Origin: Myxococcales bacterium
Lineage (GTDB): Bacteria; Myxococcota_A; Polyangia; Polyangiales; Polyangiaceae
Reading direction: 5' to 3'
Assembly: GCA_012514535.1 (NCBI GenBank)
Contig: JAAZAA010000111.1
Location: forward strand, 1-50,522
Length of the DNA: 50,522 bases
Shown: one piece after another, positions 28,077 to 35,077 of the stretch
Layout: each line of letters starts with the position of its first letter
Numbering within the stretch: position 1 is the stretch's first letter
Translations under genes and position numbers: made by a program
The notes under the pieces: generated by a model
Told to the model about the DNA's origin: nothing
What the model saw: the letters and a program-made list of their open reading frames with translations, nothing else
Databases searched by the model: none

Positions 28077-28829
28077 TCAGTTGTTGCGCCAGCGCAGGCG
28101 CTCGAGCCCGAACATCGTGTCGAGGCGGCGCTGCTCCTTCAGGAACGCAGCGTAGGTCCGCGGCACGCGGACGTCGTTCAGGAACGCGAGCATCACGCGC
28201 CCGGCGGCTTCGGCGTCGTCGGTCGCGCGATGCGCCCGCTCGAGCGTGATCCCCAGGCGCGCGCAGACGTCTGCCAGCGCGCGGCTGCGCTCTTCCTTCT
28301 GGAGTTCGCGCGCCCAGTGGAGTGGATCGAGCCAGGCCACGTCACTCCGCGCGGCAGGGGGCAAGGGCCCGGGGATGCCAGCGGCGCCGGCGACTCTCCC
28401 GATCTCCGCCTGGAGGAAGTCGCGATCGAAGGCCGCGTTGTACGCGAGGGGCAGGCACCCGGCCACGAACTCCAGGTACTCGGGGAGGACCTCCGCGAAG
28501 GTCGGCTTCCCGGCGACGTCCTCGTCGCGGATCCCGTGCACCTCCGTGGCGTCCGCCGGGATGGGACAACCGGGATCGATGAGCCACCCCTTGCGCGCCA
28601 CCACCTCTCCGCCGCGAAAGATCACACAGCCGAGCTCGATGATGCGGTCGACGGCGGAGTCACGCCCGGTCGTTTCGGTATCGATCGAGACGAACGGGAT
28701 GTCCGTCATCAGGTCCTCGCCGCTCCATTCCTGGGCGAGCCCCTGGACGACGATCTTGATGAGGTGCGCGATGCCCGGGTAATGGCGGCCGGTGCGGAAG
28801 CACCCGCCGCCATCCATGGCTCCCTTCAT
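28077..28829 (-). CDS. DnaQ-like 3'-5' exonuclease (DEDDh)
   Basis: A 250-residue exonuclease of the DEDDh family. ExoI is SIDTETTGRD (D50, E52); HGIRDEDV is the typical substrate-proximal segment; ExoII is YNAAFDRDFL; ExoIII is HRATDDAEAAGRVM, giving the catalytic His and last Asp. It resembles the epsilon proofreading subunit of DNA polymerase III, but free-standing members also act in repair or RNA trimming, so I do not name it dnaQ. The ATG at 28829 overlaps the stop of the upstream thioredoxin-like gene (ATGA), implying coupled translation. The first 40 residues lie outside the nuclease domain. Confidence 0.88.
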   Translation of the reverse strand: MKGAMDGGGCFRTGRHYPGIAHLIKIVVQGLAQEWSGEDLMTDIPFVSIDTETTGRDSAVDRIIELGCVIFRGGEVVARKGWLIDPGCPIPADATEVHGIRDEDVAGKPTFAEVLPEYLEFVAGCLPLAYNAAFDRDFLQAEIGRVAGAAGIPGPLPPAARSDVAWLDPLHWARELQKEERSRALADVCARLGITLERAHRATDDAEAAGRVMLAFLNDVRVPRTYAAFLKEQRRLDTMFGLERLRWRNN

Positions 28830-29992
28830 CGGGGCGCCCCCGCCGGCGCCGCGGCGTTCTCGGGCGCCGCAGTCCGCGGGGCTCCCGAAGTGCCCTCGGC
28901 AGGCGCCGGGGCGGGCGCTTTCGGGGCGGCCCCCTCGGGGGAGGGCGCCGGCTGGGTGGGCTGCTGGGGCGCGGGGCTGCCGGCGTCCGCTGGCGCAGGG
29001 CTCCCGGCGTCCGCTGGCGCGGGGCTGCCGGCGTCCGTCGGCGCAGCACCGTGAGGCTTTGCGGCGCCGTCGGGTTTCTCGGCCCCGTCGGGCTTCGCGG
29101 CGCCGAGGAGCTCGAGCTCCAGATCGATCCAGTCGTTTAGCTCCGCGCCGAGGTCCTCCGAGTAACTGAACTCGCGACCGTTCACGTAGATGGTGGGAGT
29201 CGCCCGGAGCCGCACCGCCTCCCCCTGCTTCCGATCCTGAGCGACGCGATCGGCGACCGCCTCGCTCTCGATGTCCTGGGCGAACCGCGCCGCGTCCAGG
29301 CCGATCTGCTTGGCGAGCCCGTCGATGACCGAGCGGGTCGGCGGCGTGTCGACGGAGAACAGCGCGTCGTGCATCTGCCAGAACTTCCCTTGGCGGTGGG
29401 CGGCGATCGCCGCGCGCGCCGCGGTCTCGGCGTTCGGGTGGATGTCGAGGGGGTAGTTCTTGAAGACCAGCTGCACCTGGTCGGGGCGCTTGTTCACCGT
29501 CTGGGCGAGCACCGAGCTCGCCGCGCGACAGGCAGGGCACTCGAAATCCGCCCACTCGACGATGACCACCGGCGCCGTGGGGGAGCCCTTGCGGGGTGAG
29601 TCGGCGAGGTCGATCGACTTGACCTGGTCCTTGCCGAAGCGCGCCCGATAGGCGGCCTCCGCCTGGGTCCGCGTGCGCCCCTTGCGCACCTCGTTGACGA
29701 GGAAGCGCGCCGCCGGGACGCAAGCCGCGCACGGTCGGCTCTCCTGCACGCACTGGGCGATGCTCACGGGCTGATCGGGGCAGGGGGCGAGCAGCTCACT
29801 CACCTGCGACGACCACTCGCGCTTCTCCCGGGCCGTGAGCTCGGACGTGTCGACGCCCGGCAGCTGCACGTCTGCGGGTGCGCTCTGAGGGGCAGGATCC
29901 GGCTCCGTCTCCCCTGGGGAGCGGCACGTGGTCATGTTCAGGTTGATCAGGATCGAGCCACCCAGGGCTCCCATCAGGCGCCAGCTCAGCAT
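28826..29992 (-). CDS. DsbA-like thioredoxin-fold lipoprotein
   Basis: A 388-residue protein with a short hydrophobic N-terminus and a possible lipobox-type Cys (C23). A Cys-rich helical segment (about 70-118, with CPDQP, QC and RPCAAC followed by a helix ending in RARFG) loosely recalls the CcmH/NrfF helical hairpin. A DsbA/DSBA-like domain follows (about 140-295) with the redox motif C152-PA-C155 and the cis-Pro loop ATPT (P266). The last 90 residues are Ala/Pro/Gly-rich, including three DAGSPAPA repeats. It is expected to work as a periplasmic thiol oxidoreductase or disulfide isomerase. It is translationally coupled to the downstream exonuclease gene, a pairing without obvious biochemical logic. 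Confidence 0.82.
   Translation of the reverse strand: MLSWRLMGALGGSILINLNMTTCRSPGETEPDPAPQSAPADVQLPGVDTSELTAREKREWSSQVSELLAPCPDQPVSIAQCVQESRPCAACVPAARFLVNEVRKGRTRTQAEAAYRARFGKDQVKSIDLADSPRKGSPTAPVVIVEWADFECPACRAASSVLAQTVNKRPDQVQLVFKNYPLDIHPNAETAARAAIAAHRQGKFWQMHDALFSVDTPPTRSVIDGLAKQIGLDAARFAQDIESEAVADRVAQDRKQGEAVRLRATPTIYVNGREFSYSEDLGAELNDWIDLELELLGAAKPDGAEKPDGAAKPHGAAPTDAGSPAPADAGSPAPADAGSPAPQQPTQPAPSPEGAAPKAPAPAPAEGTSGAPRTAAPENAAAPAGAPR
28974..29040. repeat. 24-base coding repeats (DAGSPAPA)
   Basis: About three near-identical 24-base units within the C-terminal linker of the DsbA-like gene, encoding DAGSPAPA. Low-complexity linker expansion is likely. Confidence 0.75.
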
Positions 29993-30069: not shown

Positions 30070-31659
30070 GTGACGATCCCGCCCTCTTTCCCAGCATCCA
30101 CCGGGTCCGCGCTGCCCCCGGGAGTTCGGCGCGTGATCGCGGTCGGCGGCGGCCGCCCCGGCGTCGGCCACAGCATCCTCGCGGCGAATCTGGCGCTATA
30201 CTTGGCTCAGCTGGGCCGCAAGGTCGTGTTGGTCGACGCCGACCCCTGCGGGGCCACCCTCCACACGATGCTCGACGTGGAGCCGCCGCCGCCCGCGGAC
30301 TCCGAGCACCCCGCCGATCCCCTCGCGGACGAAGAGCTCGTGCCCATCCCTACGCCGGTCCCTGGCCTGGCCTTGCTGCCCCAGGTCTACTCGATCGGCA
30401 GCACCGTGCCCGTACGCCCTGGGCGGAAACCCCGCTGGGCACGCGGCCTGCGACAGCTGGACGCCGACTACATCGTGCTCGATCTGGGCCCGGGGACGGC
30501 GCCGGCCACCCTGGACCTGTTCCTCGAAGCGGACCTGGGGATCTGCGTCACGACGCCGGAGCCTCCGAGCGTCGAGGCCGCCTACCGCTTCTTCCGAGCC
30601 CTGTTCCAGCGTCGGGTGCGGCGCACGCTCGTGAAGGATCGTTTCAAGCTCCGCATGCTGGAGCGAGCCCTGGCGCAGCTCGAGCCCCTGCCGAGCCCCA
30701 TCCGCTTGATCCAGACCGCGGCGCGCTACGACTCGTCCATCAGCGAACGGGCCGCGACGGAGCTCTCCAAGCTGCGCCCGCGCCTCGTGGTCAACGGCGC
30801 CCGGCTCCGCCAGGACAGCGAGCTCGGCCCGGCGATGGTGGACATGGCGGCGCGTTACCTCGGCGTGACCGTCGACTACGTGGGGCACGTGGAGCAAGAC
30901 GACGCGGTGTGGCTGAGCGTCGTGCGTCGCAAGCCCCTGCTCGTCGACGGACCGACGAGCAAGAGCGCCCGGAACGTCGAGCGCGTCGCCCGCCGCATCC
31001 TCGCCCTCGCGACGTCCCGTGAGCAGCCGCGCCAGGTCGACCCCATCCCGCTCACGGAGCAGGAGCCGAACCTCTACGACGTGCTGTGGACTCACCGCGG
31101 CGCCACCGATGAGGAGCTGCGACGCGCCTACAAGCGGCAGCGAGACATCTACCAGCCCGGCAGCCTCCCCATCACCTCGCTGCTGAGCGAGGCCGAGCTG
31201 GCCCGGGAGCGGGCGCGGGTCGAAGAAGCCCACGACACCCTCCTCGATCCGGTACGCCGACGCGCCTACGACATCTCCGTCTTCCCCGATGCGGACGACT
31301 CGACGCGCAGCGCGCGCCCGGAGGTGGACGGCGCGGTGCTCGCGGAGCGCGCCATGCTCCGGGAAGAGCTGGCCCGGGAGATCCACGCCGAGACCGAGTT
31401 CACCGGGCGCCTGCTCGAGCGGGTCCGGGAGTCGCAGGGCGTCGAAATCGAGGACATCGCCCAGCGCACGAAGATCGCCCCCGCCCACGTGCGCGCCATC
31501 GAAGCCGAGGACTTCGGCAAGCTGCCGGCGCAGGTCTACACCCGCGGGTTCGTGCAGCAGATCGCCAAGCTCCTCGGCCTCGATCCGACCCAGGTCACCC
31601 GCACGTACCTGCGGCGCATGCGCCAGTGGCAAAAGACCCAAGACGTGCCGCCGGTCTGA
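30070..31659 (+). CDS. ParA/MinD-like, J-like and RodZ-type HTH fusion protein
   Basis: A 529-residue three-part protein. Residues 20-315 have the ParA/MinD/FlhG fold: VIAVGGGRPGVGHSILAANLALYLAQLG, then VVLVDADP (D56, D58) and YIVLDLGPG. The deviant Walker A is damaged: the signature Lys is R29 and the P-loop Lys is H34. Residues 333-405 align with a J domain (LYDVLWTHRGATDEELRRAY ... EEAHDTLLDPVRRRAYD), but HPD is replaced by QPG (362-364). Residues 443-513 form a RodZ/HTH_25-type helix-turn-helix. It starts with GTG 30070 and overlaps the next gene's ATG (TGATG). A structural or localisation role is inferred, since neither ATPase nor DnaK stimulation seems possible by normal chemistry. Confidence 0.86.
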   Translation: MTIPPSFPASTGSALPPGVRRVIAVGGGRPGVGHSILAANLALYLAQLGRKVVLVDADPCGATLHTMLDVEPPPPADSEHPADPLADEELVPIPTPVPGLALLPQVYSIGSTVPVRPGRKPRWARGLRQLDADYIVLDLGPGTAPATLDLFLEADLGICVTTPEPPSVEAAYRFFRALFQRRVRRTLVKDRFKLRMLERALAQLEPLPSPIRLIQTAARYDSSISERAATELSKLRPRLVVNGARLRQDSELGPAMVDMAARYLGVTVDYVGHVEQDDAVWLSVVRRKPLLVDGPTSKSARNVERVARRILALATSREQPRQVDPIPLTEQEPNLYDVLWTHRGATDEELRRAYKRQRDIYQPGSLPITSLLSEAELARERARVEEAHDTLLDPVRRRAYDISVFPDADDSTRSARPEVDGAVLAERAMLREELAREIHAETEFTGRLLERVRESQGVEIEDIAQRTKIAPAHVRAIEAEDFGKLPAQVYTRGFVQQIAKLLGLDPTQVTRTYLRRMRQWQKTQDVPPV

Positions 31660-33140
31660 TGAGGTCCCTCCCGCTCGGTTCGCGCCCGGACCTGGCGTTC
31701 ACCTGGGCACTCGGGGTGGTCGCCCTGGTCCCGCGCCTCTTCGTCGCCCTGGCCTGGGCGCGCGAGCCGGTCTGGGACGGCCACTACTACCACTTCGGCG
31801 CGGAGCGCATCGCGGCGGGGCTCGGTTACTCGGAGGACGTCCTCGTCGACGGGCAGGCCATCTGGAAACCATGGGCTCACTACCCCGTGGGCTACAGCGG
31901 ATTTTTGGGCGCCGTGTATCGCGTCTTCGGCTCCTCCATCGAGGTGGCGCCCATCGCCAACGCTGTCCTCGGCACGGCGACGGTGCTCGTCGCGTACCGG
32001 CTCGCGCGCTACCTGCTCTCGGAGCGGCGGGCCGCGGTGGCCGGAGCGCTGTGTGCGCTGCACCCGGGGTTGATCGTCTACTCGGCGGTGGTGATGACCG
32101 AGCCCCTCGCCGCGTTCCTCTTGCTCGTCACCGGTTGGGTCGCCGTCGCCCAGCGTGGCCGCTGGCGCGGGGTCGTCGGGGCGGGGCTCCTCCTCGGCCT
32201 CGCCGCGCTGGTCCGCCCGGCGTCCCTCCTCGCGGGGCCTCTGCTCGCGTTCGTCTACGGCCGCCCCAGCTGGCGCGGCCTGGCGCAGCTCACCGCGACC
32301 GGAGCGATCACGATCCTCACAATCCTCCCCTGGACCCTCCGCAACTGCCGCGTGATGGACGACTGCGCCCTGATCTCCACGAACGGAGGCTGGAACCTCG
32401 CCATCGGGGCCCTGACCACCACGGGTCGCTTCCAGACCCTGCGCGCCGCCGACGGCTGCCCGGTGGTCACGGGACAGGTGCAGCAGGATCGCTGCTGGGC
32501 GGAGGTGGGCGCGAACCTGATCCGCAAGGATCCCGCAGCGTGGCTCGGGCTGGTGCCCCTCAAGCTGTCGCAGACCTACGATCACGAGTCCTTCGCCATC
32601 GAGTACCTGCGCGAGGCAGCGCCCGAGCAGTGGCCCGAGCCTCGGCGCCGGGCAGGGCGCGGCCTGCTCAGCCTGTTCCATGGGCTCTTGGTCATCGCCG
32701 CGAGCCTCGCGCCCGTCGCCTGGGTGGGTCCTCGACGCGGCGCTGGGAAGAGCTCCTCGGGGCCCTCCGGCGCGTCGACCGTCGCCCGCTGGACGCAAGG
32801 AGCCCTGCTCGGCGCCGTCCTGGTCTACGGCGCCTGGTGCCTCACCCAACACTCGCCTCCGTTCTATCTTCTGGTGGCGTTGCTCCCGCTGGTCGCGGCC
32901 CTGCCGCTCCCGGGCCGCCCTCGCTGGATCGGCGCCGTGTCGACCCGGGCGGGCGGCGTGGCTGGCTACCTCTTCGGGCTCCTCGCCATCACGACACTCA
33001 CCCACGCTGTGTTCTTCGGTGACGATCGCTATCACCTAGTCGTGACACCTGCGCTCTGTCTGCTCGCGGGGGCCGCCCTGCGTCCCCTCGGTCCGTCGGC
33101 GTCGAGAGGCCCAGCCCCGAGCCCCGCCAGCGCCCGCTAG
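31659..33140 (+). CDS. GT-C membrane glycosyltransferase (GT39/ArnT-like)
   Basis: A 493-residue protein from the ATG at 31659, which shares its A with the preceding stop. About 10-11 transmembrane helices. The first periplasmic loop has PVWDGHYYHFGAERIAAGLGY, with the acidic residue and the tyrosine/alanine pattern of the GT-C superfamily; another landmark is VRPASLLAGPLL. This matches the PMT/ArnT-like (GT39/GT83) family using polyprenyl-phosphate sugars. The acceptor is unknown. Translational coupling to the ParA-J-HTH fusion suggests the two act in the same envelope process. Confidence 0.84.
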   Translation: MRSLPLGSRPDLAFTWALGVVALVPRLFVALAWAREPVWDGHYYHFGAERIAAGLGYSEDVLVDGQAIWKPWAHYPVGYSGFLGAVYRVFGSSIEVAPIANAVLGTATVLVAYRLARYLLSERRAAVAGALCALHPGLIVYSAVVMTEPLAAFLLLVTGWVAVAQRGRWRGVVGAGLLLGLAALVRPASLLAGPLLAFVYGRPSWRGLAQLTATGAITILTILPWTLRNCRVMDDCALISTNGGWNLAIGALTTTGRFQTLRAADGCPVVTGQVQQDRCWAEVGANLIRKDPAAWLGLVPLKLSQTYDHESFAIEYLREAAPEQWPEPRRRAGRGLLSLFHGLLVIAASLAPVAWVGPRRGAGKSSSGPSGASTVARWTQGALLGAVLVYGAWCLTQHSPPFYLLVALLPLVAALPLPGRPRWIGAVSTRAGGVAGYLFGLLAITTLTHAVFFGDDRYHLVVTPALCLLAGAALRPLGPSASRGPAPSPASAR

Positions 33141-33176: not shown

Positions 33177-33289
33177 CGCTCTCGAGTCCGGGGGTCGGGG
33201 CCATCCCCGAGGGGACGCCTGCGGAGCAATCCGGGGTGACCTGGCCGCTATATGCGCTACGCGTCAGAGCGAGTATCCTTTCGCTCAGC

Positions 33290-35077
33290 ATGGGGCCGGG
33301 CGATACCATCGGAGCCGAAAGGAAAGCTCTGGCCGCGAGCGGCGGCGGACGCGAAGAGCTCCGAGCCGCCCTGCTCCGCCCGTACCTCCTGCGTCTCGCG
33401 GAGGAACACGGCAACGAAGCGGTCCAGGACGTGCTCGCCGAGGCGCGCATCCGGCGCTCGGACGTCGACAACGACTCCGCCTGGATCCCGGTGGCGAGCA
33501 TCTCGCGGGCGCTCGAGGCGCTGGCGCACCGCCTCGGCCCCGACGCCCTCGGGACGCGGGGCCGTTGGGCGACCCACCCCGACGTGCTCGGCATCTACGT
33601 GCGGCTGCTGCGGGTCGCCACGCAACCCGGCGACGCTTACCAGCATCTCGCAGAGTACTCCGGCGAGTACACCCGCGTCGGGAGCTACGAGGTCACCCTG
33701 ACCGAGCCATCGCGGGTCGTCCTTTGTTACAAGCCGCGCCCGGAGAGCCCCGATCAGTCCAGCCGACGCCTGTGTGACACGCGCCGCGCGGAGCTGCGGT
33801 CCATCCCCTGCCTCTGGGGTCTGCCGGAGGCAGAGCTCAGCGAGACCAGCTGCATCGCCGACGGCGATCCGAAATGCACCTACGAGCTGCGCTGGAAGGC
33901 CCGGCGCCGCACCACCGCCGTGCTGGGGACGGCCGTGGGCGCGCTGGGCTCCGGAGCGCTCATCGCGTTGCTCGGAGAGCGCGTCGGCGGTCCCCTCGTG
34001 GGCGGTTTCATCGTCGCGATCGGGACCACCTGGGGCGGCAGCCTCGGCCTGCTCCTGGAGCGCATGCGCGCCGATCGCCAGGCCCGCACCCTCGAGCGCC
34101 ATCGCATCGCCGCCCTCGAGCACGGGCTCGATCAGCGCGGGCACTACGTGGACTCCCAAGGCGCCCTCATCAACACGGTCCTCGGCGGCAAGTACCGCAT
34201 CCTGAGGAAGATCGGCTCCGGAGGCATCGGTGCGGTGTACGCCGCGGAGCATCTGGCCCTCGGCTACCAGGTCGCCGTGAAGGTACTCCGGGGAGCGGCG
34301 GCGGCGGACGGCGCGGAGATCGCGCGCTTGCGACGAGAAGCTCGCGTGCAGGTGTCCATCGAGCACCCGAACGTCGTGCGCACCATGGATCTCGATCAAA
34401 TGCCCGACGGATCCATCTACGTGGTGATGGAGCTGCTCCAGGGCATGAGCCTGCAGGAGCGCCTCGCGGAGGAGGGCCCCCTGGCGCCGGGCTTCGCGAT
34501 CCCGATCTTCCTCCAGGTGTGCCGCGCCCTGTCGGCGGCCCATCGCCTCGGCATCGTGCACCGCGACCTCAAGCCGGGGAACATCTTCATCGGCACCGAT
34601 CAGGTGGTGAAGGTGCTCGACTTCGGGATGAGCAAGCTGGCGGAGGCGGACGCGCTCACCCAGGACGGCTACACCCTGGGGACCCCCGAGTACATGAGCC
34701 CCGAGCAGTGCATCGGCGCCCCGGTGGATCCCAGGAGCGATTTGTATGCGTTCGGCGCGCTCATGTACGAAGCCCTCACCGGCGAGCTGCCCCTGTCGGG
34801 CCCCACGCGACGGGATCTCCTCGAGATGCACCAACGGGCCATCCCCGAGCCGATGCGGGAGCGCCGCCCGGACCTGGACATCCCGCCCGAGCTGGACCGC
34901 ATCGTGATGGCTTGCCTCAAGAAGCGCGCCGCAGAGCGCCCCGAGAGCGCTCACCAGCTGGAGCGCCTGCTCGCGTCCATCCCGCCCCACGCGCTCGTGT
35001 ACGAGTACCCGGAAGAGACGCTGGCACAGAGCCCGGATCGCCCGAGCCGCCGCCCCACCTGGCGCTTCAGCCACTGA
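33290..35077 (+). CDS. Membrane Ser/Thr protein kinase with N-terminal sensor-like region
   Basis: From the ATG at 33290 a 595-residue protein; a GTG at 33236 would add 18. Residues 1-205 form an uncharacterised soluble region whose end (ETSCIADGDPKCTYELRW) resembles the C-terminus of 4-vinyl-reductase-type sensor domains. Two transmembrane helices (208-226, 233-255) form a hairpin, so both ends should be cytoplasmic. A complete Hanks-type kinase domain follows (302-565): GSGGIG loop (309-314), Lys 331, HRD (424-426) with LKPGN, DFG (444-446), SPE and DLYAFG. All catalytic residues are present. The DNA-level neighbours are unrelated, so substrates are unknown; the FHA proteins of the same genome are plausible readers. 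Confidence 0.87.
   Translation: MGPGDTIGAERKALAASGGGREELRAALLRPYLLRLAEEHGNEAVQDVLAEARIRRSDVDNDSAWIPVASISRALEALAHRLGPDALGTRGRWATHPDVLGIYVRLLRVATQPGDAYQHLAEYSGEYTRVGSYEVTLTEPSRVVLCYKPRPESPDQSSRRLCDTRRAELRSIPCLWGLPEAELSETSCIADGDPKCTYELRWKARRRTTAVLGTAVGALGSGALIALLGERVGGPLVGGFIVAIGTTWGGSLGLLLERMRADRQARTLERHRIAALEHGLDQRGHYVDSQGALINTVLGGKYRILRKIGSGGIGAVYAAEHLALGYQVAVKVLRGAAAADGAEIARLRREARVQVSIEHPNVVRTMDLDQMPDGSIYVVMELLQGMSLQERLAEEGPLAPGFAIPIFLQVCRALSAAHRLGIVHRDLKPGNIFIGTDQVVKVLDFGMSKLAEADALTQDGYTLGTPEYMSPEQCIGAPVDPRSDLYAFGALMYEALTGELPLSGPTRRDLLEMHQRAIPEPMRERRPDLDIPPELDRIVMACLKKRAAERPESAHQLERLLASIPPHALVYEYPEETLAQSPDRPSRRPTWRFSH

Follow-up and report, generated by a model that had tools for sequence, protein, structure and literature searches.

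FlhG- and MinD-type proteins are understood as switches that require ATP. Among the ParA/MinD-type positioning ATPases, McdA lacks the signature lysine of the nucleotide-binding motif and yet displays vigorous ATPase activity (PMC6328274). In the RodZ family, an aromatic pair in the HTH domain of Ct009 and of E. coli RodZ is needed for binding to MreB (PMC4047632), and the J-like domain of mitochondrial Pam16 serves as a docking partner (PMC3806816). Herein, we describe a protein that combines parts related to all of these systems and is encoded in a 50,522-nt stretch of DNA from a Myxococcales bacterium (GenBank contig JAAZAA010000111.1, hereafter the window). It had originally been predicted to be a three-domain fusion in which all hallmark catalytic residues are replaced.

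Domain composition and predicted fold

As summarized in Table 1, the fusion was borne out by the Pfam matches to ParA (residues 19-174, 2e-15), DnaJ (residues 334-401, 1.8e-6; 28.4 bits, just above the cut-off of 27.8) and HTH_25 (residues 449-508, 1e-22) within a single open reading frame (ORF). Full-length orthologues were found across the order with 38-71% identity, indicating that the ORF is neither a chance nor a frameshift product; Sorangium cellulosum is among the named organisms with a full-length relative. Comparison with KGGVGKS located Arg29 and His34 at the two lysine positions of the KGGxxGK[ST] motif, both lysines thus being missing in the window protein, whereas most orthologues keep the second; likewise, the alignment paired YQPG (residues 361-364) with YHPD of DnaJ. 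These substitutions were as originally predicted, and so was the retention of the DAD aspartates. The statement that all hallmark catalytic residues are replaced was, however, accurate for the lysines and HPD but overstated as a whole, as Ser35, Asp56, Asp58 and Asp138 are all retained.

Table 1. Features of the fusion gene and its neighbors (positions in the window)
Feature	Position	Strand	Basis or remark
Whole fusion ORF, 529 aa, GTG start	30070..31659	+	ORF translation, Pfam, orthologues
FlhG/FleN/MinD-like P-loop domain, residues 19-315	30124..31014	+	Pfam ParA/CbiA/AAA_31; FleN Z 27.0 (model comparison)
Deviant Walker A GGGRPGVGHS, residues 26-35	30145..30174	+	R29 at signature Lys site, H34 at P-loop Lys site
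DAD, residues 56-58, intact	30235..30243	+	
DLG, Walker-B-like, residues 138-140, intact	30481..30489	+	
Helical insertion relative to FleN, approx. residues 187-235	30628..30774	+	FleN alignment, homologue alignment, model helices
J-like domain, residues 333-403	31066..31278	+	PF00226; family profile vs DnaJ 2, 6e-14
QPG at HPD position, residues 362-364	31153..31161	+	Alignment
RodZ-type HTH_25, residues 449-508	31414..31593	+	Pfam; aligns with solved RodZ-type domains 3fym, 4gqm, 2wus_R
Y490 to F494, two aromatics equivalent to those of RodZ required for MreB binding	31537..31551	+	Alignment; PMC4047632
GT-C (PMT_2) glycosyltransferase, ATG overlaps fusion stop by 1 nt	31659..33140	+	
Divergent DsbA-like thioredoxin-fold lipoprotein-like gene, upstream neighbor	28826..29992	-	Kept in part of family

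The presence of a SIMIBI-class P-loop fold was indicated by Pfam, by an AlphaFold model of the fusion built from 14 input sequences (mean pLDDT 82.5), and by structure comparison. When the modelled P-loop domain was compared with solved folds, FleN was the best match (Z 27.0, rmsd 2.4, 236 residues), followed by FlhG (Z 26.4), with MinD and Soj behind. FlhG/FleN was the closest match by sequence as well as by fold; the N-terminal domain is thus nearer to FlhG/FleN than to ParA and is better called FlhG/FleN-like. The helical insertion was also present in stand-alone homologues. Because the Foldseek lists were dominated by the P-loop domain, the assignment of the J and HTH folds is based on sequence profiles together with the full-length model; a single-sequence model of the isolated J-HTH half was of low quality (pLDDT 56.7) and was left out. 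No curated NCBIfam model reached its cut-off on either the P-loop half or the J-HTH half, and no description of the three-domain architecture was found in searches of the open-access literature, where absence is no proof. As far as can be judged from sequence, the fusion is a new variant built from known parts, and its function is a predicted one.

The J-like domain and the fused and split forms

The J fold was indicated by the PF00226 match above the cut-off and by the model helices at residues 335-404; all 22 diverse J-like members tested also matched PF00226, and the family profile in turn found DnaJ 2 (Table 1). HPD was missing at its position in all of the 112 J-like domains examined; the two strings that resemble it, of the form HP[DEN], lie in other parts of the domain. 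In place of HPD, the loop holds a hydrophobic stretch that is conserved, [SG]-L-[AP]. From this alignment evidence, the loss of HPD is an ancestral trait of the family, in which the domain is nevertheless still maintained. A true co-chaperone was ruled out by the same count, which supported the originally proposed binding, rather than catalytic, role for this domain.

All 59 of the 59 near relatives gave a match to the fusion gene, which spanned the full length in almost every case, one genome giving weak partial matches only, and 135 of the 284 genomes sampled over the phylum carried a match at 1e-20. Outside the fused form, the ParA-type half was found in SAR324 and in one Spirochaetales genome, and 34 loci in Myxococcota and SAR324 carried adjacent, co-oriented genes for a ParA-type protein and a J-HTH protein, the latter containing both DnaJ and HTH_25. 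The junction in most of these split pairs was a -4 nt overlap (ATGA or GTGA). This arrangement showed the fusion protein to be, at the level of the predicted genes, the joined form of a conserved two-protein module that has been hard-wired in the order to which the window belongs.

Two further observations were made on the split pairs. At loci L116-L119, the P-loop and J-HTH genes lie in the same frame with one stop between them, so that fusion or fission is seemingly one step off. At the SAR324 loci L043-L049, several pseudopilin-like genes with prepilin-type N-termini come after the split pair, which points to a link with type II secretion or a pilus in that lineage.

Recurrent loss of the P-loop lysine

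The two lysine positions differed in their distribution. Position 29 was occupied by Arg in 52 of the 80 fused members and by Lys in 26, whereas 32/34 split members had Lys. Arg29 is hence, on the aligned sequences, the ordinary state in fused members, with no sign of decay, and it is unlikely to be an inactivating replacement, given that McdA is active without its signature lysine (PMC6328274). At position 34, 98 of the 128 ParA-type sequences retained Lys, the rest having T, R, A, H, Q, S or V; the Sorangium orthologue (L037), for example, combines Arg29 with Lys34. The loss of the P-loop lysine as a family property was therefore not borne out, and of the residue losses expected across the orthologues, only that of HPD proved to be general. 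It had been argued originally that intact residues in most orthologues would point to sequencing error or recent decay; although most orthologues do keep Lys (but not HPD), both explanations are still disfavored, because none of the three species in the genus of the window has Lys at this position (H, H and Q; clade support 97), the loss recurs in other lineages, and purifying selection persists in lysine-less pairs.

As for recurrence, at least six lysine changes were forced by well-supported branches of the 128-sequence tree, which was built quickly and contains many weakly supported branches, and 11 by parsimony. The latter comprised 10 changes in the 80 fused members, 1 in the 34 split members and 0 in the 14 ParA-only members, a class in which one locus (L075) is in fact a fusion with a broken frame. 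As for selection, the dN/dS values of the P-loop domain in lysine-less close pairs (0.087, 0.038 and 0.178) fell within the range of those in lysine-bearing pairs (0.04-0.20); the lysine-less pairs were taken from relatives, as dS within the window's genus was saturated or high. In lysine-less close relatives, the P-loop domain thus stays under purifying selection, as estimated from these substitution rates. Asp58 was lost in 13/30 lysine-less and in 3/98 lysine-bearing sequences (Fisher 2e-7 on raw counts); this co-loss was not significant in phylogenetically independent pairs, and it was dropped as proof of inactivation.

A separate kind of replacement was seen in one clade of split homologues (L106-L112 and L142, family f37), which carries KGG[TSA]GR[ST] with arginine at the P-loop lysine position and resembles the KGGVGR-variant group NCBIfam NF047398. 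The window protein gave a weak match to NF047398, below the curated cut-off, and one split homologue gave a stronger match.

The replacement of Lys34 by His is alone no proof of lost ATP binding, as Ser35, Asp56, Asp58 and Asp138 are intact. The protein might accordingly be a working nucleotide switch, in which His34 and Arg29 suffice for ATP/ADP and which undergoes slow monomer/dimer cycling like FlhG/MinD. The intact fold, the four retained residues, a constraint on the P-loop domain equal to that of Lys-bearing relatives, and the precedent of active deviant motifs such as that of McdA (PMC6328274) would all agree with such a switch. The lysine lost from McdA is, however, the other one; the spread of T, A, S, V, Q and H at position 34 over the fused lineages resembles what would be expected of a dispensable residue and not of one particular chemistry, and some of the lineages without Lys34 have also lost Asp58. 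We thus regard a working switch as somewhat unlikely. A binding role of the P-loop domain in the window's genus is likely, as deduced from the pattern of replacement, so that the original proposal that the protein works by binding holds in the case of the J-like domain, whereas for the P-loop domain it is only likely.

The RodZ-type domain, gene surroundings and proposed role

In the family alignment, Tyr490 and Phe494 were conserved in 98% and 96% of the members, respectively, and aligned with Tyr66/Phe70 of Ct009 and Phe60/Tyr64 of E. coli RodZ. This conservation may be structural, since the aromatic pair is also a general HTH_25 signature. The membrane contacts that had been suggested for the HTH_25 module were not borne out: no transmembrane segment was found in the fusion, the top 19-residue mean hydropathy being 1.36 (at residue 36), whereas the RodZ-like protein encoded elsewhere in the genome reached 3.07. 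This genome encodes MreB in addition to that separate, transmembrane-bearing RodZ-like protein, and a canonical RodZ was therefore ruled out for the fusion. The RodZ-like protein itself (170 aa; locus L147, positions 1411-1923 of contig C275) has no large periplasmic domain, and its gene adjoins a recO-like gene.

MreB or an associate is the best candidate partner of the fusion, as we infer from the RodZ-type sequence. Since MreB is near-universal in the phylum (268/284 genomes), its co-occurrence with the fusion gives no signal. One genome of the same order (99% complete) has neither MreB nor the fusion gene, and another has the fusion and no MreB hit, these cases being too few for a test.

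The HTH might instead bind DNA, or the FleN-like domain might restrain an enhancer-binding protein in the way that FleN restrains FleQ, making the protein a transcriptional or DNA-level regulator. FleN/FleQ complexes are indeed the nearest solved relatives, and the HTH formally belongs to a DNA-binding superfamily. HTH_25, however, fits RodZ proteins in particular, the recognition-helix region is acidic (VRAIEAED), the RodZ aromatics are conserved, and the relatives have no FliM or flagellar context. FliM was absent from all 39 genomes searched, which comprised relatives and the window's own genome; a flagellar role in this lineage was ruled out on that result, and a DNA-level regulator is in our view improbable.

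The gene surroundings raised another alternative, namely a dedicated factor that places or regulates the co-encoded GT-C glycosyltransferase. The stop codon of the fusion gene (TGA, 31657-31659) shares a base with the ATG of the GT-C gene (TGATG), which confirmed the predicted translational coupling, and the GT-C gene comes next in nearly all loci of family f1 and in several of family f8. In contrast, the neighbors differ in the remaining fused lineages and in every split pair, and comprise housekeeping genes (RluD-like, Maf, YggS and ProC, named by reading their sequences) or, in SAR324, the pseudopilin-like genes. A GT-C factor thus cannot represent the ancestral function; judged from these differing neighborhoods, the GT-C partnership is secondary and lineage-limited, and we consider such a dedicated factor very unlikely. 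Farther downstream in the window (33236-35077, + strand), there is a Ser/Thr protein kinase preceded by a match to PF12625, the arabinose-binding domain of AraC type, a combination that is unusual.

Finally, a decaying gene or a sequencing or assembly artefact is hardly credible and was rejected: although the Walker A lysine is gone in a single metagenome-assembled genome and a Lys-to-His change, which takes more than one substitution, is conceivable, the ORF is intact, its product has 56-61% identity to those of two congeners that also lack Lys, and lysine-less relatives show long-term purifying selection.

We tentatively favor, at a little short of an even chance, a binding adaptor, that is, a fused FlhG-like/J-HTH module in which the ATP switch became dispensable after fusion and the HTH most likely acts on MreB or an associate. 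In the ancestor, the nucleotide-driven dimerization of an FlhG-like protein would have controlled its contact with a J-HTH adaptor. Fusion would have made this contact permanent, and ATP turnover, no longer needed for it, could then have become dispensable in several lineages, that of the window included. In the window's genus, the P-loop domain would be a nucleotide-independent platform for binding and dimerization, the J-like domain a docking surface as in Pam16 rather than an Hsp70 activator, and the HTH with its RodZ aromatic pair would most likely dock on MreB or an MreB-associated partner. The protein would thereby act in the cytosol as a positioning factor or scaffold for envelope growth. 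A wider proposal, which we advance as doubtful, is that an undescribed spatial-organizing module of Myxococcota and SAR324 was freed from ATP by fusion and repeatedly gave rise to pseudo-ATPase scaffolds on the MreB machinery. The existence of the same module as two coupled genes and as one chain, with the lysine lost many times and mostly after fusion, constitutes a natural experiment on the purpose of the nucleotide cycle; the family further offers a conserved bacterial J-like domain with HPD nowhere, and a cytosolic RodZ-type domain alongside an ordinary RodZ.

Compared with the known systems, the window protein resembles Pam16/Tim16 in having a J fold without HPD; Pam16/Tim16 is, however, eukaryotic and pairs with a true J protein. 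With RodZ (T. maritima, 2wus; Chlamydia CT009, 4gqm), it shares an HTH_25 domain and, within it, the two aromatics that RodZ requires to bind MreB, but its HTH is C-terminal, and it has neither a transmembrane segment nor a periplasmic part. FlhG/FleN is the closest solved fold (5j1j, Z 27.0, in the range of 26% identity), likewise with a single-chain P-loop domain and the deviant Walker A position; the window protein differs in the replaced P-loop Lys, the insertion, the C-terminal J-like and HTH parts, and the lack of a flagellum in its relatives. NCBIfam NF047398 (KGGVGR-motif variant AAA ATPase) likewise gathers ParA-type proteins whose P-loop lysine is altered, there to Arg and here to His. 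McdA and other ParA/MinD positioning ATPases show that family membership can be kept when the signature lysine is gone (PMC6328274), but McdA, an active ATPase, retains the P-loop lysine, which is the one lost from the window protein.
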